Of a stretch of DNA of 64,000 nt, positions 4,962 through 45,100 are shown one piece after another. A program made the position numbers and the translations under genes. Source of the DNA: Solobacterium sp. (GTDB lineage: Bacteria > Bacillota_I > Bacilli_A > Erysipelotrichales > Erysipelotrichaceae). Below the pieces are notes generated by a model. It worked only from the letters and a program-made list of their open reading frames with translations. It was not told the origin of the DNA and made no database searches. Where the stretch lies: the NCBI GenBank assembly GCA_017512725.1, contig JAFWEW010000002.1:1-64000 (forward strand), given 5' to 3'. How positions within the stretch are numbered: position 1 is the stretch's first letter; each line of letters begins with the position of its first letter.

Positions 4962-7900
4962 ATGGAGCGTAAATCATTCTCTGAATGGTTTATGAAGATG
5001 ACTATGGAAAATGTATGCAGTAAATGCGGAAAACCTCTGATTCCCGGCGCCAGATTCTGTACCGGCTGCGGATCACCTGTGACCGTTCAGGAACCAAAGT
5101 CTGCCGTGCAGCCGCCTTCTTCCGGAAAGGGGAAAACCGCTGCCGGGGCACCCGCTTCTCCAAAAAAGAAGTCGTTTGTTGATACTGCCCTGACGATTAC
5201 CCTGGTAATACAGCTGATTATTGCGGGATTCTGGTATCCCGGTTTTCTCCGCGATAAGAAAAAACCGGGTTATGAAGGAATCACAGTGCTTCCGACGGCT
5301 TCTCCCGGCGGGCATAACGGCAATGGAAACGGAAACCAGGACCGGCCGGATGTGCTGCTGCTTGGAAATGATCCCGATGCGTTTGTAATGGATGTGACTG
5401 AGGAAAACTCCCCGGGCAATCCGTTTCTGATCGAAGTGGATATCACCCAGAAGGAACTGGATGAAACACCGGTGCTGGTAAGTGCAGCCGTTTCACCGGA
5501 GAACCATGAAGTGACTGCCGGTTCCTTCAAGGCAGATTTCAAAGACTGGAACCTGGAGAAGGAAGAAGATACCTGGAATGTTAAGGCACTGAGTCCAAAA
5601 GAGGATAAGGTCACCGGATACACTCTGCTGACCTATGACTTCTCACTTGCCTCCGGCCAGCATGAATTCCCGACCTGTGTTGAAATCCACATGCCAAGAA
5701 CTGCCGGCGACTATGAAGGCAGCGTGGTCTGGTACAACATGGAAGCGGGCTGCTGGGAACCGGTTGCCTATTCTGTTTCTGAGGATGGCTCGGAATATAT
5801 CATCCGCACGGATCATTTTTCGCCATTCAGTGAACTGGTGAACTGGTTCAAAAAATATACCAGGAACAGCTATGAGATGGCTGGTACGATTTTCGATACG
5901 GTTGATACTGATCCAAACGGCAATCCCTACCCGCAGCTGCAGAAGCCGGTCCGCATGGTGGACGAACGCGTCCATGAGCTTCTGGCCTGGCCGCAGGAAA
6001 GCAAGGCGGTTCTGAATGCAATCAAAAAAGGTACGATTCCCGATGACATGGCAGTGACGAACTTCATGAACATGTTCAATCGCTTCGGCCTTGGCTATGG
6101 CAATACCGTGATGACGCCGATTACCTCATGGGACCAGAAACTGATCGACGGTCTGACAAAGATGAAACTGACAAACAGACTGGTTGGCGGAGCGAACGTC
6201 AAAATGATGAAATATACCGGCGTGACAGCGATTCAGGGCGGGATGATCATCGTTGGAATCATTCTGACCGGGACGCGGATTATTTATCAGGTAGCCAACG
6301 GCGGTGAACTTATGGATGTGCTGAAGGCCAATGCCGGTGATCTTGCGGGTCTTACCATCGGAACGGCAGGTTATATCGTAGGAGGCACTACCGGGGCAAC
6401 CCTGGGATGGATCGGACTGGCGGTGTTCCTGGGCTTTGAGGCTTACGCCCAGGCAGAGCCGCTTCTGAACGCAAGACCGATGGATAATACCGAGCGGATC
6501 TATCGGCATTACATCATCAAGAAAGGACATGCGCTGACAAACCCGGTGGAGGGTGATACGAGATCACCGGATCTATCCTATGGCGTAGAACGTTTCCGAT
6601 GGGCAAAAGCGCTCCGTACGATTTTTGAGCGGAATAAAAATGACATGGCCAGAATTCCGGATGAAGTCAACGAACTGTATGACAGCTACGTCAATTCGTT
6701 CTGGAACCTGACCGAACAGGAACGGCGTGCATACACGGAAACTATCGACAAGTCTTACCGGACACTGGTCTATGATGAAAAAACAAAGCAGAAGGTCTGG
6801 GCGGAGTGGAAAGATCCGGAAGATCCGGAAGTATACAAAAAACATACCAAAGAGTCGATCATCAGCGGAACGCAGGATATCCTGCTGAGTCTCATCGAAA
6901 CCTATCAGGCACAGGCAGAATGTGAAATCAAATCAACGATTCAGAATGAAGTACTGCCCCGGCTGAATACGGATATGGTATTCCTGGTCCGCGACACCGG
7001 TCTGCTGAACAGCGATGAACACTTTGACAAATCACCGCTGGTTACCTATGCGAAAACCGATCCATGGCTCATGCAGGAACAGAACCACGTCGACACGGAA
7101 GGCCTGCTGGAAAAGAAGTATCCATACAGTTATACGCCGGAACGCTATGATCTCTATGAACCGGCTGAGCGGTTCCTGTACTTTACGGATCAGGCACAGT
7201 CTCTCTTTGAACCCGGCAACGAAAAAGACAAGAATGTTTATATACCGCCGGCATTCTATCCTCATATCAACGAAGACAGCAACGAAGTCTTTGCCTGCAA
7301 GTATTACTACTACATGATGATGGGAAACCCGGAGATGCTGTTTATTAATTCCGACATGGAAGGCAACCGGGACATCTCTCCGGCATCGTATTCCATTGAT
7401 GTGCCGGCAAAGCCGGATGTCGGCGGGACAATCAACGCAATGGTGGTCATTGACCGGAATGTCAAAGGCCAGTTTGAACCGCAGAATATCAAATTCACAT
7501 CCAATGATTTCCGTCCGGATGGCAAGCCGGTGGAAATGACCTTTTCGCTGCGTTCCGACGGCAGCTTTGAACTTACGATGCCGGAGGTGGTCGTCAATCG
7601 GGAACGTACGGAAAAAGACATGGGAGATGAGATCGCATACCAGAAGCAGTTCTACAAGGACTTTAAATGCCGGGAGTATTCTCAGACCTGGAGCGAAGCC
7701 TATACGCTGAAAGGAAAACTCAAAAAAGAGGATCTGTATGATGACCGGACGGGCTGGACCTGTTACGGCATTGACAACAGCACGCCGCTGAAATCCATGG
7801 ACTCTTCCGGTTACCGGGAGTCTTATGTGAGCAATGTATATGATCTTGAAAATGACCGGGCTTACACAGTAGATGTATTCCGGCGGGAAGAAAAAACAGA

Positions 7901-8189
7901 GGAATACACGATAAAACTGAGCATTGATGACCATCCTTCCGAAGACAGTCTCGGGTATTATTTCTCGACCTATCTTTCCATAAGTGTCGTGGAAGAAAAC
8001 GGTACGAAGAAGCTGAAACTGACGGCAAAGCTGAAGGGTCTGGGAAGCGGCGTAACAACCACCATACGGGAAAGCAATACGGAAGCGATGACCACGGACA
8101 AAACGACCAGAGATGATGTGACCTATGATCAGTCGTTTACTGCAGAAGCGAAGGTTCCTTCCAAAAACTTCTACTGGTACAACGAGTAG
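4962..8189 (+). CDS. Large zinc-ribbon membrane protein of unknown function
   Basis: 1075 residues. An N-terminal zinc ribbon (Cys19-x2-Cys22 ... Cys33-x2-Cys36) is followed by a Pro/Ser/Lys linker, one membrane helix (about 74-95), and a long region probably outside the cell. A glycine-rich hydrophobic stretch near residues 420-490 (GLTIGTAGYIVGGTTGATLG) resembles the membrane-active segments of glycine-zipper proteins. The remainder is charged and has no fold I recognise. The start is uncertain: ATGs at 4962, 4992 and 5004 are in frame and none has a clear ribosome binding site. It stands alone between the GH5 gene and a convergent TIR gene. A zinc ribbon plus one TM helix is common in uncharacterised Bacillota proteins. 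Confidence 0.7.
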   Translation: MERKSFSEWFMKMTMENVCSKCGKPLIPGARFCTGCGSPVTVQEPKSAVQPPSSGKGKTAAGAPASPKKKSFVDTALTITLVIQLIIAGFWYPGFLRDKKKPGYEGITVLPTASPGGHNGNGNGNQDRPDVLLLGNDPDAFVMDVTEENSPGNPFLIEVDITQKELDETPVLVSAAVSPENHEVTAGSFKADFKDWNLEKEEDTWNVKALSPKEDKVTGYTLLTYDFSLASGQHEFPTCVEIHMPRTAGDYEGSVVWYNMEAGCWEPVAYSVSEDGSEYIIRTDHFSPFSELVNWFKKYTRNSYEMAGTIFDTVDTDPNGNPYPQLQKPVRMVDERVHELLAWPQESKAVLNAIKKGTIPDDMAVTNFMNMFNRFGLGYGNTVMTPITSWDQKLIDGLTKMKLTNRLVGGANVKMMKYTGVTAIQGGMIIVGIILTGTRIIYQVANGGELMDVLKANAGDLAGLTIGTAGYIVGGTTGATLGWIGLAVFLGFEAYAQAEPLLNARPMDNTERIYRHYIIKKGHALTNPVEGDTRSPDLSYGVERFRWAKALRTIFERNKNDMARIPDEVNELYDSYVNSFWNLTEQERRAYTETIDKSYRTLVYDEKTKQKVWAEWKDPEDPEVYKKHTKESIISGTQDILLSLIETYQAQAECEIKSTIQNEVLPRLNTDMVFLVRDTGLLNSDEHFDKSPLVTYAKTDPWLMQEQNHVDTEGLLEKKYPYSYTPERYDLYEPAERFLYFTDQAQSLFEPGNEKDKNVYIPPAFYPHINEDSNEVFACKYYYYMMMGNPEMLFINSDMEGNRDISPASYSIDVPAKPDVGGTINAMVVIDRNVKGQFEPQNIKFTSNDFRPDGKPVEMTFSLRSDGSFELTMPEVVVNRERTEKDMGDEIAYQKQFYKDFKCREYSQTWSEAYTLKGKLKKEDLYDDRTGWTCYGIDNSTPLKSMDSSGYRESYVSNVYDLENDRAYTVDVFRREEKTEEYTIKLSIDDHPSEDSLGYYFSTYLSISVVEENGTKKLKLTAKLKGLGSGVTTTIRESNTEAMTTDKTTRDDVTYDQSFTAEAKVPSKNFYWYNE

Positions 8190-8194
8190 ACAAC

Positions 8195-8281
8195 AGAAAA
8201 AGACTTCGGGTTTCCCGATCCGGATCCGGTGTCCGAAGTCTGTACAATTCCATGATTCATTCACTGCCGGGGAAACCCGGC
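8195..8281 (+). pseudogene. Decayed duplicate of the GH5 gene tail and its terminator
   Basis: A 19-base segment ending CTTCGGGTTT is identical at 4696-4714 (inside the GH5 gene) and 8195-8213. It is followed in both places by CCGATCCG, GATCCGGT, CTGTA, AATTC and then the same GCCGGGGAAACCCGG hairpin. There are internal deletions and no open frame in the second copy. The large zinc-ribbon gene is thus bracketed by the true GH5 tail and this relic. Confidence 0.65.
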
Positions 8282-8286
8282 TTTGT
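8266..8286 (+). terminator. Terminator after the zinc-ribbon gene
   Basis: GCCGGG-GAAA-CCCGGC followed by TTTGTTATT. It separates two convergent genes; the minus-strand gene stops at 8286-8288. Confidence 0.65.
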
Positions 8287-11200
8287 TATTTGTTCAGTTC
8301 GCTGACACCTTTTTCAATCAGCTCTTCTGTCGTGTAGTGATGGAAGGTACCGGGATAGAAGAGGGTATCCTCTGCTTTTCCGTCATACGAATAAACGATG
8401 ATCTCATCGGTCTCCGGATCATAGCCGAGCACCTGGGCATCTGCAGATGCACTCGAGCGGGTCGGCATTTCATCAATATCTACAAAATCGATACGGTCCT
8501 GAAGGAAGACGATCAGCTGTCCGTTTCCTTCTGTGACCCTTGCGGTTTTTTCGGCATCCGTATTGGAAGCGGAAAGCATCGTGTTGCCAAGCAGGTTCCC
8601 GTTCCGGTCATACTGGTACAGCGTATCATCGTCATAGACTGCGATCAGACGGTCCTTATGAAAGTACAGAGCGATACAGGTGGCACCCGGATAGGGGATC
8701 TCCGCCGTCACTTCATTTTTGGAATTCAGAAGCGAGATACCGGCAGCGGAACTGACTGCTTTCAGGGAACCGTCCGCTGTTTCCGCAAACAGGATGTTCA
8801 GAAGATTGATTTCCTTTGCGTACCGGACTGCGCCGGTCTTCGGATCAAAGAAGGCAGGGAAAACCGATTCTCCCTCCTGCACCGCCAGGATGCCGGTATT
8901 GCCGTCCTCGGAAAGCGCAAAGACAAGCCCATCCGGATCATTCGGGTCGGTATATGCCTGAAGCCCGGGCTCCAGCGAAAGGGGGACGGTTTTTTCTGTT
9001 CCTTCCTGCAGATCAACGACATGGAAGATCAGATCATCCGAGTCTTCAAAATAGCAGAGCCGGTTGTCCTGTACGGCCATTACCGGTGTTTCCTTATAAT
9101 ATGTCGTCAGGATCATATTCTTGAGACTGTACTGACGCTCCTGGAAATAGCTGTCGATTGCCTTGTATTTTCCGGCCCTGGCAAGATAATCCGTCCGCTT
9201 CAGGGGGATGGAACCCGCCAGGGAAAGATCTTCGAAGCGGTGCCGGTCAACCTTCATCGAACCGGTAGTGATGTCGATATGCAGGATCGGCAGAATCTCA
9301 GAAGAAAGCGGAACCGGAAGGATATACAGCAGTTCCTGTTCTCCACAGGTGATGCGTTTGAGTTCCTGCATGGATGATCGGTCATAGAGGATCACTTCAT
9401 TCTGGCATTTGACAGCCAGGTATTCACGATTGAAGGATGCACCGTCGGCGACGGTACCAAAGCCGTTCCCCTGAAACAGAGAGAGATCCGGATCAAATGC
9501 AGGTTCGTACCAGGAAACATTTCCTTTGCTTAAGATGGCATAACTCGAATCCAGCATGTTCTTTCCTTCAAACATAGCTGCCTGGGCAATGCTTTCCGGA
9601 AACAGACGCGTCATGGAAGCACTGTCTTCTCCCGCCCATACGGTCGCCTGGTAGCCGTCTGCGGTGATAAACCCATAGCTGTTCCCGCGACCGTAATACA
9701 TGGTCAGAATCGGGGAACCAAGTGTCTGTGAAGAAAGGATCTCACCGGTATTCTGATCCAGCACGGAGAAGGTATCGGCAGCACTGACCGTCATGATCGG
9801 CGTCTCGCCAGCCAGATTGAAATGGACTTCGGTCCGTACGCTTTCCATACTGAAGGGAACGGTGGTCTGCCATAACAGACCATCCGGGGTGAAACAATAG
9901 ACGCTCAGGGGATTGTTTTGAATATAACGGGACGTTTCTGTGGAAAAGGTTCTGTTATCCCTCGGACATTCCAGAACTGCCAGCCGGTCAATATTGATAA
10001 ACTGAAAGGCTTCCGGCTTCCGATATTCCCCGGGGAGAGCATAATACGTACCGTCTTCTGTCCGAAACATGCCAAGACCATAGGAGGAATCCTTGGCATC
10101 CCGAAGCAGTACGGCGATATAGGTATCATCCGGTGACCATACCAGATCATAGATATACCGGGATTCGGACTGCGGCAGGCGAAGCGATGCGACGGGCTGG
10201 CCATCCGAAGTACGCATGATTTCAACCGCATCCAGATCTGCGGCAGCGGCCAGCTCTTCATCGGAGGAGACGGCGATTGCCCCGGGAATCTGATAATTCA
10301 GCGTCTGTGTCCAGAGGCGTTCCCCCTGCGGGCTCCAGGCCTCTGCACCATGTCTTGTCAGTACCAGAAGGTTTCCATGCGCCAGCTCCGGTTCCCAGTT
10401 TTCCCTGGTTTCGGATACGGCAAAGGAAGATATGCGTTCAAACGGATCCACTGCCATTACCGTTACAAGATTATTCTGATCGATCAGGAACAGCCTTCCG
10501 TTTTCCGGATCCGGTGCCATGATCCGGATATCGCTGTAGAGATCAGTCTTATGCGTTTCGAGTACCTGATAGGGCAGCTGATAGGCAAGGGACGCTTTTG
10601 CCAGGGCATATTCTGCTTCTGCGGTCACCGGCCGGTCATTGTCAGATGGAAGTGCGGAAAGTGCAAGGGAGATCGCATCCAGCCGCTGTCCTTCCCGGAG
10701 CGCATCCAGCGAAGCGGAAGCGATCGTCCGGGATTCATTGATCTGTGACTGCCGGTAATTCTGCGAGATCTGATGGTTGCTGATGAGGAGCCAGGTAATC
10801 GCAGCGATGCCGATGATGCCGGCAACCGAAAACCCGGCGATCATCCGGTTCCTGCGGTACGTTTCATTGCGCATGACCAGATCGTCATACTCACAACCCA
10901 GCATTCCGGACACAAGACGCGGCAGTTCAATGCGGCTGGCTTTTTTCAAATCCATCCGGTAGTCGCATGCCAGGGGTTCGATGTCTGTCACAACGGTCAC
11001 GGGGTTTCCTGCTTCATCGGTTCTGGTTTCTGTTTTGTGAAGCAGCTGGTCGGGGAAAATACCCGGCGGTTCGCCTTCAGACAATACTGCCATGATATGG
11101 TCATGGTCATGCGTCTTAAGGAACTGGTCGATCTCATGAAGGCACCATTTGGATTCGTTATATGCATTGGAAAGAACAACGATGAGAAAATCCGAGTTTT

Positions 11201-11411
11201 CCAGTGCATCGTCGATATCTTTTCCAAGGTCGCTGGTCAGTTCCAGTTCATTCTGGTCCCGGAAGATCCGATTGATTTTTTTGACACCGGTCTTTTCCTG
11301 AATTGCCTTTGGAATATGAAAGCGCTCCAGCTGAGTCTGAAGCGCAGAAGCCACAAGCGTATCCCGCTCGTTATGGCGATAGGAGATAAATGCGTTATAG
11401 TGTGTTGTCAT
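8286..11411 (-). CDS. Membrane TIR-domain protein with C-terminal beta-propeller-like region
   Basis: 1041 residues from the ATG at 11411 (MTTHYNAFISYR), chosen because the longer frame runs deep into the upstream gene. Residues 1-125 form a TIR domain: AFISYRHN at the start, a RDQNEL segment, FLIVVLSNAY, and the SKWCLHEI motif with Glu93 at the site of the catalytic Glu of NAD-cleaving TIR enzymes. A membrane helix follows (about 190-211). Residues ~230-1041 are a long beta-rich series of blades resembling WD40/quinoprotein propellers. It overlaps the RyR-domain gene by 17 bases, so the two are co-translated. I infer a membrane sensor-effector that may consume NAD+ or make a nucleotide signal. 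The domain order TIR-TM-propeller is unusual. Confidence 0.8.
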   Translation of the reverse strand: MTTHYNAFISYRHNERDTLVASALQTQLERFHIPKAIQEKTGVKKINRIFRDQNELELTSDLGKDIDDALENSDFLIVVLSNAYNESKWCLHEIDQFLKTHDHDHIMAVLSEGEPPGIFPDQLLHKTETRTDEAGNPVTVVTDIEPLACDYRMDLKKASRIELPRLVSGMLGCEYDDLVMRNETYRRNRMIAGFSVAGIIGIAAITWLLISNHQISQNYRQSQINESRTIASASLDALREGQRLDAISLALSALPSDNDRPVTAEAEYALAKASLAYQLPYQVLETHKTDLYSDIRIMAPDPENGRLFLIDQNNLVTVMAVDPFERISSFAVSETRENWEPELAHGNLLVLTRHGAEAWSPQGERLWTQTLNYQIPGAIAVSSDEELAAAADLDAVEIMRTSDGQPVASLRLPQSESRYIYDLVWSPDDTYIAVLLRDAKDSSYGLGMFRTEDGTYYALPGEYRKPEAFQFINIDRLAVLECPRDNRTFSTETSRYIQNNPLSVYCFTPDGLLWQTTVPFSMESVRTEVHFNLAGETPIMTVSAADTFSVLDQNTGEILSSQTLGSPILTMYYGRGNSYGFITADGYQATVWAGEDSASMTRLFPESIAQAAMFEGKNMLDSSYAILSKGNVSWYEPAFDPDLSLFQGNGFGTVADGASFNREYLAVKCQNEVILYDRSSMQELKRITCGEQELLYILPVPLSSEILPILHIDITTGSMKVDRHRFEDLSLAGSIPLKRTDYLARAGKYKAIDSYFQERQYSLKNMILTTYYKETPVMAVQDNRLCYFEDSDDLIFHVVDLQEGTEKTVPLSLEPGLQAYTDPNDPDGLVFALSEDGNTGILAVQEGESVFPAFFDPKTGAVRYAKEINLLNILFAETADGSLKAVSSAAGISLLNSKNEVTAEIPYPGATCIALYFHKDRLIAVYDDDTLYQYDRNGNLLGNTMLSASNTDAEKTARVTEGNGQLIVFLQDRIDFVDIDEMPTRSSASADAQVLGYDPETDEIIVYSYDGKAEDTLFYPGTFHHYTTEELIEKGVSELNK

Positions 11412-13296
11412 AAACAGACTCCGACTGCAGAATCTTTGGCAGACAGCGGATGATGACCCGATCGGAATTGATATAGTCGACGGAAGAAGCTTCAGGATTG
11501 TATTTCCTGCGGATCCTGTCGACTTCACGTTCCACTTCTTCCAGTTGAGAATACGTAACGATCGCAGGATGAAGCAGCAGCACATCATCTTTGACTTTCC
11601 TGCCGCCCGTACGTTTTGCGATCACATCAACCTGGGCGAGGGTTGCCTTGCGCCAGCCGTTGATCCGCTGATAGGCGTTCCACCGGTTATGTTCAGCCGT
11701 TCCGAGAACTGCGAGCTTCTCCGGGTCATTGATCACCGAATCGATCCATTCCCGGTTCGGAACACCCTCTGGCTTGGAGAAAAGGATATACCTGCATCTG
11801 GCCATCATGGCCAGTGCCTGTGCGAAGGAGCTGTCATTGTTGACATAACGGTAGAAGGTTTCTTCCAGCTCAGGGGTCCACTGATCTTCCCGGCAATATG
11901 CCATGTGAACCTGCTTTGCGGCTTCTTCCAGCTGCGGGTGGACCAGCGAGTCATAACTGTAATGCTTTTCCATACTGCCGAAGAACCAGAGCTTGGAATC
12001 TTTTTCCAATAGATCAAGCGAGCGGCTGTTCCGAATCCTTGCGGCAATCAGCGGCGAATCCAGCTGATCGGATTCCGATGACAGGATCCGTAAGATTTGT
12101 TTGGCAATGCGGTGATTTTCAAGGTCATCACTGATGGATACGACCGTAAGATCCGGCCGTCCGATTTTCTGCAGCAGTTCTCCGAGTTCAGAACTTTGCG
12201 CATCCAGATTATGGAAGGTAATATCGTAGTTCTTGCCGGTCGGATCATCCGAGAAGTAGGCATCGAGATCCGCATTCAGAAATTCCGGAGCTTCGGATTT
12301 AAAGCGGGCGGCAATCTGACGCGCGTTCCGGTCAACGACATGGAATTTTGTGCGGCTTTCCGGCAGGATCAGAAGACTTGCGGCGGTTCGGAGAATACTG
12401 CCGCCGGTCTCACCGCAGCCGATCAGTAAGAACTGATAATGATAGTCGGGAATGCCGATCGGCAGGGACTGAATCATATGATGGAACAGTTCGGTTGCCT
12501 CGGCACCGTTTTCATCGATATAGCGGATCTGCAGAGCGGTGTTGTCGGAACCGAACTGTGTATCGAATTCCCGTACCAGCTCCAGATGACTGTGATTGAT
12601 GAAGACACGGACAACGGCATGGTCTGAATTCTGATCTCTCAGGTGCCTTGCCAGTTCGGCAGTCTTCGGCAGGGTTTTGTCCGGATCATCATAGATCTCA
12701 TAGAACTCATACGTCCGGTTCTTCCGGATCTTCATGGAAGCCTCATCAAACTGGACCAGGAAGGAGTGGTTTTTGTTTGCCCGGGCTTTCAGCGCATCCG
12801 ATGCATTCCTGGAGGTGCAGAAAACACGCAGTTCTTTTGGATTCCGCTTATAAAGAGATTCGGCAATCATGGCGCTTCGTTCATTGAGTTCGGAAAAGAC
12901 ATGTACATGCCGGTATTTTCCGAATCGGAGAAACTCCACGAGCGAACGGGAAAAGCCGATGATGAACATGGAGGCAAATACCGGTCCGGCGATATACAGC
13001 AGGGACAGCAGAAAGTTGTAGGCATGGAAGATCGGACCCGACAGGTTCAGGGAATAGAGAATATCTTCGTTGACGGACATGCCGATCGCAGACGTTCCGT
13101 ATTTCAGTGCGGCAAGCAGCGCATAAAGCAGATGCGAATTCTTGTTCATGAAATAGGGAAGCGCAAGTGCGGAGATCGCAAAGGAAATCGAAATGGTCAT
13201 GGACAGTGACATCTTCTGAAGATCGTTGCGGTTTCTCCATGCGATCGAGACGCCGATGGACAGTATGAACAATGCGACAGCTAAAAAAATAATCAT
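11395..13296 (-). CDS. Membrane protein with TrkA-N/RCK-like Rossmann domains and C-terminal RyR domain
   Basis: 633 residues. Several membrane segments occupy residues 1-120. Two Rossmann-like regions follow: YRHVHVFSELNERS (about 128-141), and a clear nucleotide-binding motif LIGCGETGGS (291-300) with an acidic VVDRN at the end of the next strand, as in TrkA-N/RCK domains that bind NAD(H) or other nucleotides. Residues ~455-600 match a bacterial RyR domain, with the hallmark EHNRWNAYQRINGW at 535-548. A ribosome binding site (AGGA) precedes the ATG. It is the first gene of a two-gene operon with the TIR protein. A ligand- or NAD-sensing membrane partner of the TIR protein is inferred. Confidence 0.8.
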   Translation of the reverse strand: MIIFLAVALFILSIGVSIAWRNRNDLQKMSLSMTISISFAISALALPYFMNKNSHLLYALLAALKYGTSAIGMSVNEDILYSLNLSGPIFHAYNFLLSLLYIAGPVFASMFIIGFSRSLVEFLRFGKYRHVHVFSELNERSAMIAESLYKRNPKELRVFCTSRNASDALKARANKNHSFLVQFDEASMKIRKNRTYEFYEIYDDPDKTLPKTAELARHLRDQNSDHAVVRVFINHSHLELVREFDTQFGSDNTALQIRYIDENGAEATELFHHMIQSLPIGIPDYHYQFLLIGCGETGGSILRTAASLLILPESRTKFHVVDRNARQIAARFKSEAPEFLNADLDAYFSDDPTGKNYDITFHNLDAQSSELGELLQKIGRPDLTVVSISDDLENHRIAKQILRILSSESDQLDSPLIAARIRNSRSLDLLEKDSKLWFFGSMEKHYSYDSLVHPQLEEAAKQVHMAYCREDQWTPELEETFYRYVNNDSSFAQALAMMARCRYILFSKPEGVPNREWIDSVINDPEKLAVLGTAEHNRWNAYQRINGWRKATLAQVDVIAKRTGGRKVKDDVLLLHPAIVTYSQLEEVEREVDRIRRKYNPEASSVDYINSDRVIIRCLPKILQSESVYDNTL

Positions 13297-13323
13297 AATC
13301 AGTTCCTGTTTTTCTTATTAATT

Positions 13324-13373: not shown

Positions 13374-13398
13374 AAAAAACTTCCGCAGTCAGCGGAAG
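13374..13398 (-). terminator. Terminator of the 13405-14004 gene
   Basis: On the minus strand CTTCCGC-TGACT-GCGGAAG followed by six T residues. It isolates the upstream single gene from the RyR/TIR operon. Confidence 0.85.
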
Positions 13399-28409: not shown

Positions 28410-28463
28410 ATGCGTCTGCATAGATACCTGTCAGTCCGTTCCGGTAGGGGGAGCCTGGTATGA
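28410..28463 (+). CDS. Possible 17-residue leader peptide of the giant adhesin
   Basis: ATG at 28410 with AGAGGGTG upstream encodes MRLHRYLSVRSGRGSLV. Its stop TGA (28461-28463) overlaps the adhesin ATG at 28460 as ATGA, so it could couple translation to the adhesin. Part of it (RLHRYLS) vaguely resembles the N-terminus of the protein at 41131 (RLYCMSE), so it may be a relic of that gene from the duplicated locus. Confidence 0.3.
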   Translation: MRLHRYLSVRSGRGSLV

Positions 28464-31400
28464 AACAATCAACAAAGAAGTTTTTTGCGGCTTTATTGTC
28501 CGTCAGCATGATGTTCAATTCGAACATGACAATCTTTGCCAATACAGATGAAGAAGAGCCTGCGGAAACGGAACAGCCAGAAACAATTTTAAATGATGAA
28601 GGCACACCAGTAGAGATTACACAGGAACCGACTGAAGAAACACCTGCAGCGGACCCCAGTTCGGAACCGACTGAAACTGTAGATACAAAAGAACCTGCGG
28701 AAACAGAACAGCCGGCAGAATCTGAAGAACCTGAAAAGGAACAGCCTACAGACTCTGAAGAGACTACAACGGAAGAGTCTACAGATCCTGAAGAGACTAC
28801 AGAGGAAGAAAACAAAGATGAAACAAGTTACACCATCAAGGCGTATTGTTTTGATGGTGTTAATGATATTCAGAACTATGAGAATATTGATATCACGGAA
28901 AAAGTAGCTTTTTTTGGTGAAGATGGGGCAGAACCTGCACAGGTAGCACCAGAAATTGAAGGCTATTCTTTTGACGTTGCAATGATTAATGATACCTATG
29001 CAGAAGGTCTTCGCTTTGATGCGTATACAGTCTCTAATGAATGGGTATCTTTTGTTGATATCGCAGATGAGAATCATACTGTGACAATCCGTTTTATCTA
29101 CCATAAAGAAGAAACAGATCCAGTATATATAACTCATTTTGAATGCCGTGGAAATGGGGTGACTGTTACTGCGGATACCAATGAAAACGCCGGTTTAACA
29201 GAAGGCACTACTCTCCATGCGGACTATATGGATCCTTCCAGTGATGCATATAAAACGGCGGTTGAGGCATTAGAGACAAATCTATGGAAACCTGATGGGC
29301 AGGTGGCAGAATACGTTCTTTATGACGTTTATTTCTTGACGGCAGACAACGAACGTGTAGAGCCGGATGCCAACGTTACGGTCAACATGTATTTTGATGA
29401 AAATATCTCCATGAGTGACAATGTCGATCTTCAGCATGCAGATGTTGTTCATGTAACTGAATATGGCGGAGCGGAAATAGTAGGAGATGTAACACTGGAT
29501 GACCTGGAAGTTGAGTCAGCCTGGTTTGTCAGTGATTCTTTTTCACCGTTTGGACCAAGACTGCTGGGGACAGCCAACAACGCTACAAGTAGTAACCTTC
29601 GGGACTTTTTGACTTCCGCAAAAATACTCGATGCTTCTGGGTCTGAGGTTACTACAGTTAAAGAGGGAGCCCCAATAACAATCGTTGTTTCTTTTGGAGA
29701 AAATCCAGATGGTATACAGTTCATTAATACCGGGGATGATATGGTCTGGAGTCCACTTCCAGAAAACTTCACACCTTCCAACGACAGCGGGACAATTGAG
29801 ATTCATGGTGAGGACAGTGACGGTAAGTTCGATGTATCAGGTAATACTTATACGTTCGACAGCAATGGTACTGTAAAATTCAATTGGAATACCAGCGATC
29901 CTAATTTTTCGAGACTTGCAGCTGGATTAAACGCAAAGTTTACGCTGAACGTTACCGGTTCTTTTAGCGGTAATTCAACAATCACTGATAAGAATGGCGA
30001 AAATTTGGTGAATGTTACGGTCGATACCACAAAGAAAGCAACAGCATACAAAGATGGAGCTTATTGGGGATCAGACAATAAGATTCACTATACCGTTACA
30101 GTAACTTCCGAAGGGATGACAAATAATATATCGGTGAAAGATATTATTTCCGGTACTGCGTTAACTTTTGATGAAGGAAGTGTTACTGCAACCTCTTCAA
30201 CCGGAAATCCAGTAACTCTGAATCCAGCAGGCGAGACAGTGACAAACGGTTTTTCCTATGTGATTCCATCGATGACAGATAAAGAAAAAATCACACTCAC
30301 CTATACAGCTTCTGTTGATACAGCAAAGCTTACAGGTAGGGGTACCGCAGAACAAACGGGAAACAGTATCACCGTAAAACCGGAGAATGGTGAGGGTGAT
30401 ACGAGTACAAAAGATTTCAATAATAATATTGGATGGACCAGCGTTGATAAAAGTGCAGGTGCGGTTAGTGATGATACAACAGCCACCAAGATAATTCCCT
30501 ATACAATTGTGGTAAATAAAGAAATGGCGGCATCAGTTGCTGGATCAACGATTACAGACTCTATTACTGCAGATTCTCAAAGTATTTTGAGTTATTCCGG
30601 AACCGGAATTACGATCGTTGTAAAAGACAAGGACGAAAACACCATACGAACGGATAGCATTCCCTGGAATTCTATTCAGAATCAAGGTGAAAAGAGCTGG
30701 TCCTATACGATTCCAAGCGATGATAAAGAAAAAATCTATCGGTATGAGATTTCTTATACCGCGTCAGCTGATACAAGCGGGCTGTCTACGAAAACAAAGC
30801 TGGAAAATACTGTTACAGATAGCAATGGGAACAGTGGTAAAGCATCGGTAGAAGTAGGGCCAACAAGTGAGAATGAGATGCAGATCGCCAAGACTTCAAC
30901 AGAAGTAACCTGGGAGAAAACTGCCTGGAAAGTCACGGTGACTGTACCAAAGAATGGCCTTAGCAAAGCTGTTGTTACAGATACACTCCCGGTACAGACA
31001 TATAATAACGAACCAATGGTTGATCTGCTTGATGCAAGCACCGAAATCAAAGTAACCGGTCTTTTAGACGGAGAACGTTATGAGGTCGACAAATCGGATA
31101 CTTCTAAATTGACCGTAAAATTCTATAAAACCGTTGGCGAAACAGAGACAGAGGGTTTAATTGGCGGCACTGCCAAACGCGATATTTATATCGAATTCAC
31201 AACGATCAACAATGAGAAATGGCTGGAATACGCTCAAAACGTCAGCTGGCTTAAAGAACATAAGAATACTGCTGTTTTGTCAAATGGTTCTCAGGAAGTA
31301 AAGGCAGAAGCAGAAGTAACACCAATCAAATCATCATTCAACAAGGAATTTGATGGTTTTTCAACTACACAGCTAAGTGATGGTACAACAGTGCCAATGC

Positions 31401-34400
31401 TGAAATATGAAATTGTATTCACAGGGTTAAGCCAAAATGACGTAACTATTACGGATACATTTGACAGCACATATTTTGAATATTATTTACCAAAAGATAC
31501 AGAATCCTGGGAAGCTGATTATTTGCGAGGTGGCAATCAGTATAGTCAGGATCATAAGGGCAGTTCCAGAGTAAATGTTTCTGCTTCAGCAGGTTCGATT
31601 GTTTTCACATTGACAAAAGCATCGATTCCAATGAACGGCGAGTCCTATTTCAGTCACTACAAGCTTGTTTATTATCTACGTGTAAAATCGGCGGAAGCAC
31701 TTCGACAATTGAATAATCTTGCGTATCAATCGGATGGCGGAACTGTTCCTGTTACAAATACCGCAACGTCCATTCTTGGAAATGATTCTGTTACCAGTAA
31801 CTATATCGTTGATACAGTAACAAAAGAAATTCTGAATAATAATGATTTAAATGCGCAGGGAATTGATCCCTCAACTGTTAAACCTCATTTTCAAATAGTT
31901 GCAAATCCGTCGGCACAGGATCTTGATCCAGACAGCAATACAATAAAACTTACGGATAGTTACAGCGGGCTCAGTGTTGAATATGACACGATTACTGCAA
32001 ATCCATCAGAAGGCGTAACCTGGAATGCATCAGGAAATACGATTACTTTTACTATTCCAGACAGTACGAGAGTAGAAATCTCGTACTATGCCAGAATTGT
32101 TGGTAATGGGAACACAGAAATCAAAAACAAAGTCAGCCTAAACGGACAGGAAAAAGATTCTAATCGTACAGTTAATGTGCGTTCCTCCGGTGCAGGAACC
32201 GTCAGCATCCCTTCTATAAAAATTCTGAAACATAAATACGGTGATATGACAACCGTACTTCAAGGCGCAAAGTTTGAGTTATATAAAGATACAGGTTCAG
32301 GAAAGTTTGAGGATGCAGTCCAGGTAAAAACAAGGCAGACTGATACTCCGGTGTTATTTATTACCGACGACAAGGGAAAATGTACAATAACAGAACAAAC
32401 TGGAGAAGATGGGTGGGATCTGTTGTGGAATAAAAAATACTTCCTCAAAGAGGTTGAAGCGCCCAGCGGATATCTGTTAATCGATTACAATCCCGAATTT
32501 ACGATTACGGACGGTGATGTTGCGGATTACAAAAAATATATATTCCTTGATAAAGATATTATTCGTATTGCAGACAAAAAAATTGAAGTCAAAAAATCGC
32601 TTGAAGTAAATAAAGCGATTATTGGATCTGCACCAGAGGAAAATTATACGTTCACAATGACACCGGTTTCTGCAAAGACACCGGCTTCGGAAGGGGTTGA
32701 GAGCGTTGATATTTCTCCGATTCCGGTTCCGAAATCATTAAACGCATCTGTAACAGGTGCAGGAAAAGCAGTCTTTGATGAAATCGAATTTACTCAGCTT
32801 GGGACTTATGTTTACGAAATAGCTGAAGTTATTCCGGAAGATAAAACAGAGAGTCTTTCATACTCCACAGATAAGATTATCGCGACCGTTGTTGTTTCCA
32901 TGGACAGCGAGGATAATGTCACCGCGGAAGTAAGCTATAAACGTATATCCGGTGAAATAGAAACGGCGAATGATAATACAATTACAAATACATATCTTGG
33001 AAGTCTGCGAATTCAAAAATCTGTCACGGTAAACGGAGAAATTACATCCAGCACCCTTGCAGATGGAGATTATGTTTTCAACGTACTTGATGAGAAGAAT
33101 GCAGTAGTTGCGGCAGAAACCATAACAATCACAAATGGTGTCAGTAATACGATAGAAGTGAAAAACTTGGCAGAAGGAACCTATAAAGTTCATGAAGCAA
33201 CCGATGCACTGAAGCAAGGCATGTCGCTCACAGGGAATAATGATATTCAGATTGAAGTCAAAGGCGGAGTAAAAGGCGAAGCTGCGCAGTTAGCATCCTT
33301 TACAAATAATTTGACGACTGGCGGATTGAAAATCACAAAGAATGTAAGAATAAACAATGAAACAACTTCCACAACATATGCGGATGGTATCTATACGTTT
33401 GATGTAGCAGATGCCTCTGGCAGTATTGTTGCCACAACTACAATTGAAATTAAAAACGGAATAGCCAACACAGCGATTGTTAACGGTCTTCAGGCTGGTA
33501 ATTACACAGTAACTGAGCGTGTCAACAGTAATCCAAGCAGTATGTCACTGATTGGGCAAAATGGACTTACTGCAATTGTAAAAGCGGGTGTTAATGGGGA
33601 AGATGCATCAGCACCTATTGTTAACTTCACAAACAACAAGGTCGCAACTGGATCGTTACAAATTACGAAAAATGTAACACAGAACGGAAATGCGATCAGC
33701 GGGAGTGACGTTGCAGACGGAACGTACCGGTTTATCATCAAAGACTGGCGGGGTGAGGTTGTTGAAAGTAATGCGGCGATTACAATAACAAATGGCGTTT
33801 CAAATACTTATACCAGAGAAAATCTTCCGGTAGGAAATTATACCGTGACAGAAGTTACAAATGATCTCAAACTAGGTATGAATGTGAGCGTAGGGGCAGA
33901 AGGTCTTTCAGCGACAGTTGCGGAGAATGCTACATCCTCAGTTGCATTTACCAACAATATCAATACCGGTTCTTTGAAGGTTCAAAAAACTGTTACGGGT
34001 AATGCCGGCGACAAAACAGCAGACTTTGAATTTGTGATACATCTTGAATATAACGGTGTTCCATTAAGCGGAACCTATCCGACCATACACGGAACGTCAT
34101 CTGGGACGCTGACGTTTGGTGACGATGGAAATTCTGCATCATTCAAACTGAAAGATAATGAAACATTGGAAGTGCTGAATCTTCCGGAAGGTGTCAGGTG
34201 GTTTGTTACGGAAACTACAGTGGCAGATTACGATACAGAGTATTCTCCGCAATCCGGTACAATCACAAAAAACACAGTTTCGACTTCAACAGTTACCAAT
34301 AACCGTGAATCAGAAGGAACGCTGATTATTCAGAAAAAGCTGAGTGGAAATGCGGCGCTTTCAACCGATTCCTTTACAGTTACCGTCGTATTTTCCGGAG

Positions 34401-37400
34401 ATGATCTGAATACCATTATCAAAACACTCTCAGGGACATCTACTGACACAACAAATACTGAAAACAAAACCAGGACGATTGAATTTACCATAAAAGGAAA
34501 TGAAACCGCTACATTTGAGTATATTCCAAATGGAACGGTTTATACCGTGAGTGAAGGAAGTGCGGAAGGATATGAACCATCCTATAAGATTGTTTATCTC
34601 GATCCTGTAAACGGTGATGAAATTGCTGTTGATAATCGAACGGATGGTGCTGGAAGCACATTTAATGTCAATTCTTCTGATGTAAGGGAACAAAGCACCC
34701 TGCATAATGTGGAAATCACAAATACAAAGAATACGTATGGGGATTTGAAACTGACAAAGACTCTGACAGGAAATGATATTGATCAAAATCAGATATTCCA
34801 TTTCAACATTTCCCTGACCGGGCAAAACGTGGAGTCATCCTATACAGCAGTTAAGACTTCCGGCAGCGGAACTTCTACTACTACGATTACCGGTACAAAC
34901 GGACAGTTCAGCGTATCCTTTAAAGCTGGCGAAGAAGTGGTGGTAAAAAATATAGCCAACGGAACGCATTATGTAGTGACGGAAGTGGAAGCAAATACGG
35001 ATGGTTTTATTACTACAGCTACTGGAGAAAGCGGTGATATCAATGGAGGAACGACAGCACCAGTACAGACAGCAGCGTTTACAAATACCAGAAATTCTGA
35101 GGGGGCCCTTATTATCTCAAAACAGCTGCGTGGTAATACGATAGAAGGCAATCAGTCATTTAGTTTTGAGGTAACGCTAACCGATTCCAATGGCACTGCT
35201 GTAAGTGGTACATTCAGTGAATATGTGTTTGATGCAAATGGAAAACACACCTTTACGATAAAAGGCGGGGAAACTATCCGAATTAATGGTATTCCAAATA
35301 ATACGAATTATTCTGTTACTGAAGCTTCTATAAGCAGTTATGAGAATCCAAAATATGTTGTCAATGGTAGAGAAGAAACTGATACAGCTTCAGGAACGAT
35401 TAAAGGGTCAGGCGAACAGAAGGTACAGACCGTCAAGATTATTAATGAAAAAAACACAACAGGAAGTCTCTCTATCGAAAAAACTGTACGCGGAAATACG
35501 ACGAGTACGGATAGTTTCGTATTTACAATAACTGTCGAAGGTGCGGGAACCAAAGAATATGGACTTTCTGGACTGTCTTCCCTGACTAATATTTCATTTG
35601 TGGATAATGTTGCGACATTAACTTTGACGGGTGGAGAAAAGGCAATAATCAGTGGTCTGCCCAACGGTGCGGCATATACCGTGTCGGAAGCATCTTATAC
35701 TTCTTCGGGATATACAACTGTATCAGAAGGTGAGAGCGGCAACATCGATCACACAGTTATAAAGACAGCTAAGTTTTATAATACAAAGAATGAATTTGGC
35801 GATCTTGTTATTCAGAAGTCGATTGAAGGGAATACACCAGCTGATTCTGGCGACGCCTTTAAGTTTGTGGTTGTTTTGACCAAACCAGATGGCTATGCGC
35901 CTTCAACTACAGAAAAATACACTGTCTTTAAGAATGGTTTACAGGATGGCGGTGAACACGACATTACTTTTTCCACTGACAATAAACTTACAATCGAAAT
36001 AACTGGAGTTGCAGCTACAGATAGTGTTACGATTCGGCATCTTCCTGCAGGTGCTGAATATACTCTGACAGAAGAACTGAAAGATGAGCAGCGCAATAAA
36101 GGATACGAAAATCCGTTATTTTCAGAAAATGGAGGTGCCAGAAGTAATACCTGCACCGGAACGATTAAACCTCATACAGAAGCAGAAACCGGAGTGGTTG
36201 AACATGTAGATGTTATCAATACACGCAATACATTCGGTAATCTGAAGATTCAGAAGACAGTCAGTGGAAACTCAGGGGATACAACAAAAAACTTTGAATT
36301 TACCGTTAAGGTCGTTGGCGCGGGCACCAAGGAATATGACTTTAAAAAAACAACCGCAGGGATGACCGATTCTACAACAGGAAAAGTTCAGTTCTCGGAT
36401 GATATAGCTACCATCAACCTGAAACACAATGAAGTTATAACCATTAAGGATCTTCCAAATAATGCTGAATACATAGTGACGGAAGCGAATTATCAAGAAG
36501 ATGGGTACGAAACAACCTTTACAGGGAATACCGGAACTATTTCTTCGTCGGCTTCAACAGCTTCTTTTAACAACAAGCGGGATACCGTTGGAAAACTGCT
36601 GATCACAAAGAAAGTTACTGGAAATGCAAGTACTACTTCGGATACTTATACATTTAATGTGGAACTGAAAAAACCGGATGGAACTTCGCTGACAGGAACC
36701 TATAATTCAAAAATATATAAAGGGAGTACTGCACCGGCTTCAGGAACCGTTGCACTAGACGATGCTGGCAAAACTTCAGTAACGTTAAATGCGGATGAAA
36801 CAATCACGATTGAAGGTCTTCCTACCGGTTCTACCTATACTGTATCTGAGTCGACAACAGGATTAACCGGGTATGAATCCCCAAAATATAACGGTGTTGT
36901 TAAAGAGAACGAAACAGGTACAATCTCTGATTCGGCAGATGCTGTTGTGGAAGTTACCAATACAAAGAATCTATATGGTGGCTTCCAGCTTTCAAAAGCG
37001 ACTGGCGGAAATGATGGAGATAAGAAAAAATGGTTTGCATTCCGCATTAAGCTGACAGGAAGCGATGGGAATCCGGTGCCGGATGGGAAATATGGAGATC
37101 TCTGGTTTAAGGATGGTCTTGTGGATACTTCAAAAGACAACATGCATCCATACAAAGGGGACGGAGTAACCACATTTGAAGACAAAGACTACAATGCATC
37201 CTATCCGATTATTATTTCGAAGACTGATACCGTGAAAATCTATGGTCTTCCAAATGGTACGAGTTATGAAATTACGGAGGAACCAACTTCCTTAACGAAA
37301 AATTCATATATCTCAACCGTAACAGCTGGTTCGTCCAGCGGAGAAATTGCTGGTACAGTCACAAAAGACAAAATTAATGATGAGTCGAGTTATAATCTTT

Positions 37401-42136: not shown

Positions 42137-45100
42137 ATGAACTGGAATTCGATCTTCCACAAGAGTCTGCGCAGACATGAGCGCAGACAACTCATAACGC
42201 TGATGTCTGCAGTGATTGCCATTGCAGCTTTTTTTGCGGTTCAGGCGTCACTGTCCAGATACAGTGAAGCACTGTCTTCCGAACCGCGGTGCGGAATGGA
42301 AGAACATGTCCATACAGATGACTGCTATGACGAAGAAGGGAATCTGATCTGCACACTGCCGGAACATGTTCATACGGAAGAATGCTATCAGGATGAGGTT
42401 CAGATTGAAGAACCGGCATTAATGGAAGAAGCGAATAATCCAGAGAAGGATTCCGATGAACCAAAGCAGGGCATCATTGAAACAATAAAAGATGCTCTGG
42501 TTCATCGACTCGAAGAAAACTATGATAATACGACGGAAGATACCGATGATGATGTAACTGTTACTGCGGAATTTAATGATGGCGTCTTACCTGAAGATGT
42601 CGTAATGAAAGTCACTGCTGTTGATGCGTCACAGTATGAATGGCTTGCCAGTCAGGTAACGGATACAGCAAACAGAGAACTGCTTACGTATGATATTTCC
42701 TTCTATAAAGGCGATGAACTGGTAGAACCGGATGGGGATGTAAAGATTACCTTCAAAGCCGGATTTATCCAGGAGAAAACAGATCCGCAGATCGTTCACT
42801 TTGAAGAGAATGAGTGGAATACAGTCGAAAAGACAGAAGTAATTGAAGAAACAGAAGTGAAAGACGGAGAGATTTCAGTCATCACGGACAGTTTCTCTGT
42901 TTACGGAATCATCTACACGGTTGATTTTACCTATGAAGTAGATGGAAACACTTACTATTACAGCATTGAAGGGAATTCCAGTATTTCGCTAAAAGAACTG
43001 CTGCGTCGTCTCAACGTTGTTGATGAAGAAGAAATTGATGACTTTGCAAGCAAGATCAATAATGTATGGTTCTCTGATGAAAGTCTGGTTCAGATAAGCA
43101 GACAGGATAACGGAGACTGGATGCTGGAAAGCCTGGCACCGTTCACCAGTAAAGAACAGCTTGTTATTTCCATGAATGACGGACAGAGCTTTTTGGTTAA
43201 AGTGACAGACGAACAATTGACAGATATAACCTCAATGGTCAGCGGGGTCACGATTGAAGGGGCCACATTAAACAGTGAAGGACAATATGTTGTAAAACCG
43301 GGAAAAGACTACATAGTTAAACTGATTTTTGCGGAAAGTCCTGAAAAACAATTTAATGATGAAATACTGACATACAAACTTCCGATTGGAGTTTTGATTG
43401 ATGAAATTCAGAATTATACGTTCAATACCACCGTCACAAAAGATGGAGTTGACTATGTTATTTCTGGAAACACCTATTCTGTCGCCAGTGATGGGACACT
43501 GACAATCAACTGGAATAAGCAGGATCCAAACTATGGGAAACTGCTGGATTCCAACAATATGCAGATAACGGTATTAGTTAGATCGCAGTTTGACAGCAGC
43601 GTAACGAGTCTGAATTTTGGCAATAATACAACGGTGGATTTTTCAGTAGACACAACTGCAAATGTGACTGTAAACAAGACCGGAAACTATGATCCGTATA
43701 CAAAGAAGGTTTACTACACACTTGAGATAACTTCGACAGGAGTGAATAACAATGTTTCAGTTGAAGATGTATTAAGCGGTACTGCACTTAATCTTGATCA
43801 GGATTCAATTTCAGTAACTTTACAGAACGGACAGCCAAGAACATATACAGAAATAAGCAAGAATCAGAATGGTTTTAAGCTAGATCTTGGAACTATGTCT
43901 GATGGAGAAAAAGTGAGGGTAAACTATTCCGCTTCTGTGGACTTTGATGTTCTTTCGTCCGGTGATGGTGAGGTTACATTTGATAAAACGAATAATACGG
44001 TAAAAACGTACAAAGATAATACAGAAACAGATTCCTCTTCAAAAGATTTTACGAACAGTATTGATTATTCTCCGGTAACGAAAGCCGCTGCAATTCCATC
44101 CATTGATATTACAGAGGGTGACAAGACCTATCGTGAAATCGAATGGACTATTCATGTGAATGATCCAAGAAATGTTTCGCTGGCAGGTAAAACAATAAAA
44201 GACAACAATCTTTCTCCAGATGTAATGAAATACGCAGGAGAAGGGATTCAGATTTTAGTCACAAAAGAAGATGGTACGACGGAAAACAGAACAGTCAGTT
44301 GGAATGATTTGAATAAAAGTGATAATGGTTGGACTTATAGCGTTCCGGACACTGACGGGAAAGCAAGCTATCTGATTACCTATAAGACCAGAGTAGAAAC
44401 TACAGATATGCTGCTGGATACAAAGATTACCAATAAAGTTGAAACCCCTTATGATGAGGAGACAGTTACCAATACCGTTAAACCACTTCCGGAAAACAAA
44501 CTGACGATCAATAAAAGTGGAAAAGTAATAGAAAATAACCAGTCTGAATGGAAAATTGAAGTGAATGTTCCGGCAAAGGGATATACATCCCTTGAAGTAA
44601 CAGATCTTTTCCCGCTTGGCCTGCAGGATGTAACCAATGGTTATTATTTCCTGGATACCTACGTTACTGGTTCGCTTACGGTTACGGGCCTTGAAAGTGA
44701 CGAGGGCTATACGATTGAATCGATAACCCGTGATATCAATACTCGGCACGATGACAATACGGTTTCTTCCGAAAACAAAGAAATCGGCAAAAAGCTGGTT
44801 TTCCACTATCAAAAGGATGGAAATCAGCAGAATGGATTAAAAGCAACTGAAAATGCCAGAACGATAACAATCAAATTAAAAACGGATCATTCCGCATGGA
44901 AAGACGGAACACTTCCGGAGTGGCTTTATCAGAACTATATCAATACTGCAGAGGCAGCAGTAGGAGAAATAAAAGCAGAAGATTTTGAACATCTAAATCT
45001 GAAAGACAGAGTGTTTACAAAGACATTAAGTCCATATGTTGAAACTTATACTGATGAGCAGGGGAATAATCTTCCTGTCTATCATTTTCAGATTGTACTC

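Follow-up and report, generated by a model that had tools for sequence, protein, structure and literature searches.

A TIR-propeller membrane protein and a channel-like RCK-RyR protein encoded side by side in Solobacterium: a candidate cyclic ADP-ribose signalling pair

Two overlapping genes for membrane proteins

The stretch analysed here, hereafter the window, comprises the first 64,000 nucleotides of contig JAFWEW010000002.1 from a Solobacterium sp. assembly (GCA_017512725.1), and our subject is a pair of minus-strand genes within it, called gene 1 and gene 2. Gene 1 encodes a protein whose membrane part resembles that of a channel and precedes two RCK domains, with an RyR domain at the C terminus, and gene 2 one with a TIR domain, a membrane helix and beta-propellers; the pairing recurs in other genomes, and both Glu93 of the TIR domain and the ligand-type residues of the RyR domain are conserved. 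An original prediction, made from the sequence without database searches, had placed the two genes at 8286-13296 with an overlap of 17 bases, and this is confirmed, coordinates included. The features of the pair are as follows.

11395..13296, minus strand: gene 1, 633 residues; membrane part resembling a channel, tandem RCK (Rossmann) domains, RyR domain at the C terminus
12913..13296, minus strand: gene 1 membrane part, residues 1-128; helices 2-21 and 26-52, pore-type helix 56-71, inner helix 88-127 (AlphaFold2)
12445..12912, minus strand: gene 1 first RCK-type domain, residues 129-284 (model and fold comparison)
11977..12444, minus strand: gene 1 second RCK-type domain, residues 285-440; contains GCGETGGS
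11398..11976, minus strand: gene 1 C-terminal helical region, residues 441-633; RyR signature H536-x-x-W539, H576-P, D593
11395..11411, minus strand: overlap of gene 1 and gene 2, 17 bases
8286..11411, minus strand: gene 2, 1041 residues; TIR domain, membrane helix, two beta-propellers (the second likely)
10896..11411, minus strand: gene 2 TIR domain, residues 1-172 (Pfam TIR_2); Glu93 at 11133-11135
10782..10850, minus strand: gene 2 membrane helix, about residues 188-210, with an Arg/Lys-rich cluster before it; model confidence low (block means 40-64)
9498..10571, minus strand: gene 2 first propeller, residues 281-638; WD40-type match, best Z 26.1 over 320 residues, root mean square deviation (rmsd) 3.5
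8340..9497, minus strand: gene 2 likely second propeller, residues 639-1024; weaker evidence, from model strands and tandem-propeller matches

No Pfam domain exceeds its cut-off in gene 1, and an AlphaFold2 model of it was built on 27 sequences (mean predicted local distance difference test score, pLDDT, 89.7; predicted template modelling score, pTM, 0.79). The closest folds are those of MtDMI1 (Z 17.7 over 321 residues, rmsd 4.2) and LjCASTOR (Z 17.1); TrkA gives Z 16.7 over 256 residues (rmsd 3.2), and the K+ channel GsuK gives Z 16.2, aligned from residue 26 yet with an rmsd of 9.3. A Foldseek search with the same model placed TrkA and CASTOR within its first seven matches. By structure comparison, gene 1 thus contains a tandem RCK gating-ring fold, and its model resembles the RCK-gated channels GsuK, plant CASTOR and DMI1, and Slo1 in that a putative pore-type membrane region precedes two RCK domains, whereas its C-terminal RyR domain, its TIR partner and its lack of a canonical K+ filter set it apart from them. 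Because the fold comparison barely tests parts outside residues 116-633, the pore claim rests on the topology of the model and on the channels found at two related loci (L065 and L066, below); in the model, gene 1 looks like an RCK-gated channel without the canonical filter. The original prediction had described a TrkA-N domain joined to an RyR domain, which was right as to RyR, while the remainder is a channel-like part with two RCK domains. Its Rossmann motif, GCGETGGS, is present as well, but just 9 of 27 relatives retain GxGxxG, and we rejected it as a functional hallmark of gene 1.

For gene 2 we take the ATG at 11411, the conserved TIR start, as the first codon; the mechanical open reading frame (ORF) begins at 11588. 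Residues 8-117 give a Pfam TIR_2 match of 1.3e-11 (45.5 bits, cut-off 28), TIR (36 bits, cut-off 21.3) and ThsB_TIR (27.2 bits, cut-off 21.2) pass as well, and plant TIR structures in the PDB match from 7e-05 in a sequence search. Glu93 sits in SKWCLHE, a WCxxE stretch, and is Glu in 12 of 13 alignment rows, the window included, with a gap in the other; by sequence, the predicted TIR domain with its catalytic Glu in place is borne out. The AlphaFold2 model (mean pLDDT 82.9, 13 sequences) has TIR-type alternation to about residue 172, helices across the membrane segment, and strands from 282 to 1024; the structure-comparison lists for the whole model are filled by propellers and do not reach the TIR part. 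Matches to tandem propellers extend to gene 2 residues 965-1027 with poor superposition (rmsd 18.7-24.5), and in the model a second propeller is likely. Thus of the membrane helix and single propeller of about 800 residues that had been predicted, the one helix stands, but the propeller part is about 760 residues long and is suggested by the model to form two propellers rather than one.

The basic cluster before the helix, which is also present in relatives, leads us to infer by the positive-inside rule that the TIR domain is cytosolic; the propellers are predicted to be extracellular. Across the 11 loci compared as pairs, identity averages 54% in the TIR domain, 44% in the linker and 22-23% in the propellers, and such fast divergence fits a sensor, which is the likely role of the propellers.

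Recurrence of the pair and variety of its partners

A single-sequence search with gene 1 found relatives in 4 of 145 genomes of the family and in 27 of 294 genomes of the order, the window's own included. Scanning named genomes for a pattern yielded 30 loci, many of them labelled as coming from the guts of ruminants, mostly in Erysipelotrichaceae/Solobacterium and also in Oscillospiraceae, Faecalibacterium, Christensenellaceae, Ruminococcus and others. After loci had been merged, duplicates removed and a profile E-value below 1e-20 required, 36 distinct loci of the gene 1 family were kept, and a TIR gene neighbours gene 1 at 27 of them: immediately at 25, counting L104, where a short ORF lies in between and the TIR frame seems to be interrupted, and across a single gene, a potassium-channel-RyR gene, at the other two (L065 and L066). 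Four relatives with E-values above the threshold were left out: L063, L064, L071, which has an immediate TIR gene, and L105, a split copy whose next gene upstream encodes a TIR protein. Including them would bring the tally to 29 of 40. Counted by genome, a TIR gene is immediately next to gene 1 in 18 of the 27 and across one gene in a further 2. Given the 101 TIR_2 matches in those 27 genomes and an estimated 2,000 or so genes per genome, adjacency by chance would be expected at about 1% or less. Conserved co-occurrence, on which the original prediction had staked itself beforehand, thus withstood the survey far above chance.

Among the nine loci with no TIR neighbour (L016, L043, L045, L047, L051, L053, L067, L077 and L086), five (L043, L051, L067, L077 and L086) have a contig end within 500 bases of gene 1. 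For L043, the end of gene 1 that is missing lies on a separate contig, where a TIR gene adjoins it; L077 has a broken TIR fragment upstream, which was not counted, and comes from the same assembly as L100, both being within the 36 and one of them scored as a miss. By profile, gene 1 is present in 24 of 70 genomes of the genus. Of 14 further genomes of the genus with distant relatives, four have a TIR gene beside the relative, as judged by position and frame length, four have one within 4 kb, and in six the contig has none; the genome that supplied L077 and L100 (G770) was left out, and two of the four with a TIR gene beside the relative carry 16 and 22 TIR matches and so weigh little. A plasmid collection searched with gene 1 gave no match.

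The TIR partners are of more than one kind. A gene for a TIR-membrane-propeller protein lies directly downstream of gene 1 in the window and at L076, L079, L080, L081, L084, L085, L087, L092, L100 and L104, and is divergently transcribed at L082 and L083, while a soluble TIR partner (675-709 residues, one more being cut by a contig end) is divergent at L089, L090, L094-L099, L101, L103 and L055; in the soluble group Pfam was run on one member, and the others were assigned by similarity, a TIR profile and TIR_2 matches in nine genomes. In a tree of 30 gene 1 rows, the soluble-TIR group forms one clade (support 97/95), and five partner labels, including "none seen" and "distant", require 8 changes. 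A neighbour of 678 residues in the other branch of gene 1 was considered as a housekeeping gene and rejected, since Pfam identifies a TIR protein. The nearest relative of gene 1 is L076, 54% identical and from the window's own genus, where the pair is flanked by other genes; in one genus, the pair occupies a fixed chromosomal site (L079, L084, L087 and L092).

It is scarcely credible that the two are accidental neighbours that work apart. Both kinds of protein do occur without the other in view, but against this stand the 27 of 36 loci, with varied orientations and partner types in several families that include Oscillospiraceae and Christensenellaceae, and the correlated divergence of gene 1 and its TIR partner over 11 pairs (Mantel Spearman 0.49, with 1 of 5000 permutations as high), to which shared ancestry contributes.

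An independent search started from the RyR domain. Pfam RyR, run on 392 genomes of the phylum, found 10 loci in 9 genomes, and RyR exceeds its cut-off in 8 of the 9, as it does at L066. A TIR gene is immediate at five of the ten loci (G376 twice, G585, G749 and G508) and is separated from RyR by two genes in G360. G376 encodes, one after another, a channel-RCK protein related to gene 1 (probability 98.0, E 2.4e-13), an RyR protein of 99 residues and a TIR protein. The 513-residue protein encoded between the TIR gene and the gene 1 relative at L065 and L066 is a K+ channel with the TVGYG filter and an RyR domain (Ion_trans_2 2.6e-13 and 6.9e-13; RyR 27.1 and 28.3 bits, cut-off 27.4); these proteins are identical at 490 of 513 positions and were thus counted as one event. 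The cytosolic half of the L065 channel aligns with gene 1 (probability 96.8, E 2.7e-10), which together with the G376 protein supports reading gene 1 as a relative of channels. Searched against 395 genomes of the class, the L065 protein matched channel pores only, in 4 genomes.

Other arrangements occur as well. A second TIR gene lies on the opposite side of gene 1 at the locus L042/L076, and a TIR-TPR protein adjoins the gene 1 relative at L062. TIR proteins of 506-528 residues stand beside gene 1 at L042:10729-12315, with one membrane helix, and at L068:233-1753; in the window's genome, contigs C3 and C11 also encode TIR proteins of about this size, at a distance from gene 1, and that genome has ten TIR_2 matches in all (contigs C3, C11, C13, C14, C21, C25 and C28), the top of the range of 1-10 over the 27 genomes. 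L105:5207-10756, from Bacilli, has two TIR ORFs followed by a three-helix membrane ORF and a separate RyR-type ORF, possibly a split gene 1. The flanks of L047/L102 (G200) mark the same chromosomal site as L079, L084, L087 and L092, and a TIR ORF of like size (1043 residues) lies on another contig. L127, L128 and L131 (G585, G749 and G508) are RyR proteins of 745-777 residues that adjoin TIR genes, in which RyR is the only Pfam domain over cut-off; by eye, L127 and L131 show an HD-like motif before RyR and a SLOG-like stretch after it, and this type is possibly a second class of RyR effector. L134 and L135 are membrane proteins of 812-850 residues with an EHNRW motif, beside stand-alone RyR proteins of 96-97 residues and with no TIR gene nearby; L135 lies near a gene for a type IV secretion coupling protein.

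A proposed signal from TIR to RyR, and its alternatives

The RyR domain that had been predicted in gene 1 is right by its signature residues, although it falls under the Pfam cut-off. An insert separates the two halves of the signature, whose residues align, and the HMMER alignment with animal RyR1 is ungapped from H576 to D593. The founding phage RyR protein cleaves 2'- and 3'-cyclic ADP-ribose (cADPR), with H75 and D117 as catalytic residues, W78 contacting the adenine and H100 the phosphates (PMC13232231, a preprint of May 2026). The same spacings, H-x-x-W and a His 17 positions before an Asp, recur in gene 1 as H536, W539, H576 and D593, a mapping made through the residue numbers of that paper and the ungapped animal RyR alignment, not through an alignment of the phage protein itself. 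All 27 family rows keep H536, W539 and H576; at the position of D593, 14 rows have Asp, 12 have Asn and one has a gap. That almost half of the family carries Asn there speaks for a receiver rather than an enzyme; the Asp of the window would allow the signal to be self-terminated. Among eight phage homologs tested, six bound 2'cADPR and 3'cADPR and none cleaved them (PMC13232231). From these residues, the TIR domain is likely the maker and the RyR domain the receiver of a cyclic ADP-ribose; by analogy with the phage proteins, the RyR domain of gene 1 would bind the TIR product.

We propose, giving it an even chance, a two-gene membrane signalling system: a cADPR-type signal would be produced by the TIR receptor and received by the RyR domain of gene 1, which would then gate the channel. 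The propellers outside the cell would sense a phage, the envelope or another surface cue; the TIR domain inside, once activated, would convert NAD+ through Glu93 to a cyclic-ADPR-type product; the RyR domain would receive this product and, coupled through the RCK gating ring to the channel-like pore, permit an ion flux that arrests growth, kills the infected cell or serves as an alarm. An active TIR domain, a cADPR isomer as its product, binding of that product by RyR, conduction by the pore and a purpose in defence are what we infer here, and gene 1 is probably the receiver or effector of the pair. The membrane-based detection and NAD-linked response of the original prediction fit this proposal, except that the RCK and RyR domains of gene 1 appear as the receiver and the propellers as the likely sensor.

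Several results weigh against the proposal. Pfam RyR (PF02026) reaches 11.6 bits in gene 1, below its cut-off of 27.4; the GsuK alignment, which covers the membrane part of gene 1, has the high rmsd given above; and in its putative pore gene 1 has YGTSAIGMSV where the canonical filter TVGYG would stand. L016, L045, L047 and L053 show no TIR gene though no contig end is nearby, two more distant relatives (L063 and L064) lack one as well, and no TIR gene is near RyR at 4 of the 10 phylum loci (G496, G543, G573 and G502). Viewed from the other gene, only three of the ten occurrences of the TIR-membrane-propeller protein in the sampled family genomes (G000, G023 C24 and G098) adjoin a gene 1 relative, while of the other seven, G004 C220, G004 C128 and G071 C180 stop at a contig end. 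Nor was a defence island found: 12 other window genes were tested, and there were no defence genes among them. Finally, L047 is without the TIR gene, and a hydrolase gene, of its syntenic relatives.

This last locus, which has gene 1 where relatives also carry the TIR gene, is consistent with an alternative in which gene 1 is a brake: the TIR domain would deplete NAD+, and gene 1, sensing NAD+ or ADP-ribose through its RCK and RyR domains, would restrain the TIR domain or clear the signal. Gene 1 in the window and 13 more of the 27 rows have Asp at D593, the position that corresponds to the catalytic Asp of the phage glycosidase, and one phage RyR protein does hydrolyse cADPR (PMC13232231). 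Yet we consider a brake unlikely. A domain with the Asn found in 12 rows would bind and not cleave; L076 has this Asn, as do all examined members of the soluble-TIR clade (10 in the A3 alignment and L055 in A1). Of the eight phage homologs tested, six bound and none cleaved (PMC13232231); moreover, a brake has no need of a channel-type membrane part, and RyR is found on a canonical K+ channel at L065/L066.

Alternatively, one could envision a system for surface sensing or ion homeostasis with no part in phage defence, the TIR domain being an oligomerising scaffold or the source of a house signal that tunes the flux of K+ or another ion. The folds closest to gene 1, which are K+ gating rings and transport regulators, the lack of defence genes among the 12 tested and the fixed chromosomal site in one genus all speak for such a role. 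However, the family is patchily distributed (24 of 70 genus genomes by profile and 4 of 145 family genomes by single sequence), the nearest relative is flanked by other genes, and the propellers diverge fast, and we think this reading improbable.

PADLOC was run on ten of the other window genes. The gene at 1587-2315 was considered as a defence ATPase (best model mad3, 2e-28, parts of the model) and rejected, since Pfam identifies an ABC transporter beside a zinc-uptake lipoprotein; besides it, one desaturase-type stretch matched, and two further neighbour genes had no PADLOC match. As the original prediction had anticipated in finding no named defence type for the pair, no model of PADLOC 2023 or NCBIfam June 2026 names gene 1 or the pair. 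Gene 2 matches ThsB in PADLOC (6.8e-06) over the TIR stretch only, and ThcB4 in NCBIfam at 0.0079, far below the cut-off.

Comparison with known systems and surroundings of the pair

Among named systems, the comparison is with Thoeris (types I, II and IV, PMC12847820; type VI, PMC13232231), in which, as far as the available parts of these sources describe it, a TIR gene stands beside a receiver of a TIR-made ADP-ribose signal; such a signal is presumed in our case. The window TIR domain passes Pfam ThsB_TIR, adjacency is given by the 17-base overlap and the recurrence at 27 of 36 loci, and type II also has a membrane effector (PMC12847820). The Thoeris effectors described in parts of PMC12847820 and PMC11204291 are SIR2-SLOG, TM-macro or caspase-like, whereas the receiver here is channel-RCK-RCK-RyR, and gene 1 has no match to those three kinds in Pfam, PADLOC or NCBIfam. 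A further difference is that the TIR protein here has a membrane helix and propellers predicted to lie outside. The four residues with which the phage RyDEP RyR proteins hold cADPR isomers (His, Trp, His and Asp) are also present in gene 1; those proteins are, however, decoys or glycosidases, whereas here RyR is fused to a host membrane protein adjoining a TIR gene (PMC13232231). These comparisons suggest that the pair works like Thoeris with a different receiver, a suggestion for which priority is not assured.

Animal ryanodine receptors carry the RyR repeat on a channel and have been linked with cADPR, and Toll-like receptors combine an outside sensor, one helix and an inside TIR domain. The likeness of the pair to both is in how it would work only; its TIR domain is N-terminal. 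A wider reading, to which we hold only tentatively, is that the pair constitutes a bacterial channel gated by cADPR and controlled by what amounts to a Toll-like receptor with its parts in reverse order, the RyR domain opening or closing the pore when propellers outside sense an attack and the TIR enzyme inside makes a cyclic ADP-ribose; that RyR-TIR pairs form a broad class of nucleotide signalling to which the phage RyR proteins are a counter-measure, and that cADPR-RyR signalling in animals is a parallel or a descendant. If our proposal is true, an ion channel as output and a sensor exposed at the surface are added to TIR signalling, and there is a bacterial parallel to the control of animal calcium channels by cyclic ADP-ribose; if RyR is the receptor, it offers a small, tractable bacterial system for the old question of whether cADPR acts directly on animal RyR repeats. 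The RyR domain gains a host-side partner, being found on channel-like host proteins beside TIR enzymes across a range of Firmicutes. In phages, RyR proteins bind or destroy TIR-made cADPR signals (PMC13232231).

Among the titles listed in a literature search there was no TIR-RyR-channel system, which does not exclude one in papers outside those listings. A 2015 survey of nucleotide-centred conflict systems reportedly discussed related domains. RyR, TrkA and RCK are absent from the available text of PMC7159879 and PMC8195603, with ryanodine appearing only in two reference titles of the latter; that of PMC9503650 has no RyR, TrkA or channel, RCK not having been searched there; and no host RyR effector is described in the examined parts of the RyDEP preprint (PMC13232231).

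The surroundings of the pair bear on its transcription.

13303..13307, minus strand: AGGAA, likely ribosome-binding site of gene 1, 6 nucleotides before the ATG, read from the sequence
13380..13398, minus strand: terminator-like hairpin 3' of the upstream DUF6553 gene (terminator scan)
8206..8218, minus strand: terminator-like hairpin 3' of gene 2 (terminator scan)

The hairpin between the DUF6553 gene and the pair points to separate transcription of the latter; the terminator scan found 10 terminator-like sites against 6.1 in shuffled sequences. A shared promoter, as had been predicted, is plausible from the gene overlap but is not shown, the promoter scan having given 4 promoter-like sites against 5.0 in shuffles, with no excess, and we claim no promoter.

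A phage collection searched with gene 1 gave a single distant match, L016:16368-18458, in a 22-kb, unverified and unannotated record from human faeces labelled "Bacteriophage sp."; we do not take it as evidence for a phage origin. Neighbouring genes for a MutY-type repair protein and an acetyltransferase suggest bacterial DNA, and none of the four neighbours scanned is a TIR gene. In the window, a gene for a 1075-residue protein with an N-terminal zinc ribbon (4962-8189) is convergent with gene 2, and two plus-strand ORFs are of great length, at 28460-39199 (3579 residues) and 42137-47887 (1916 residues).

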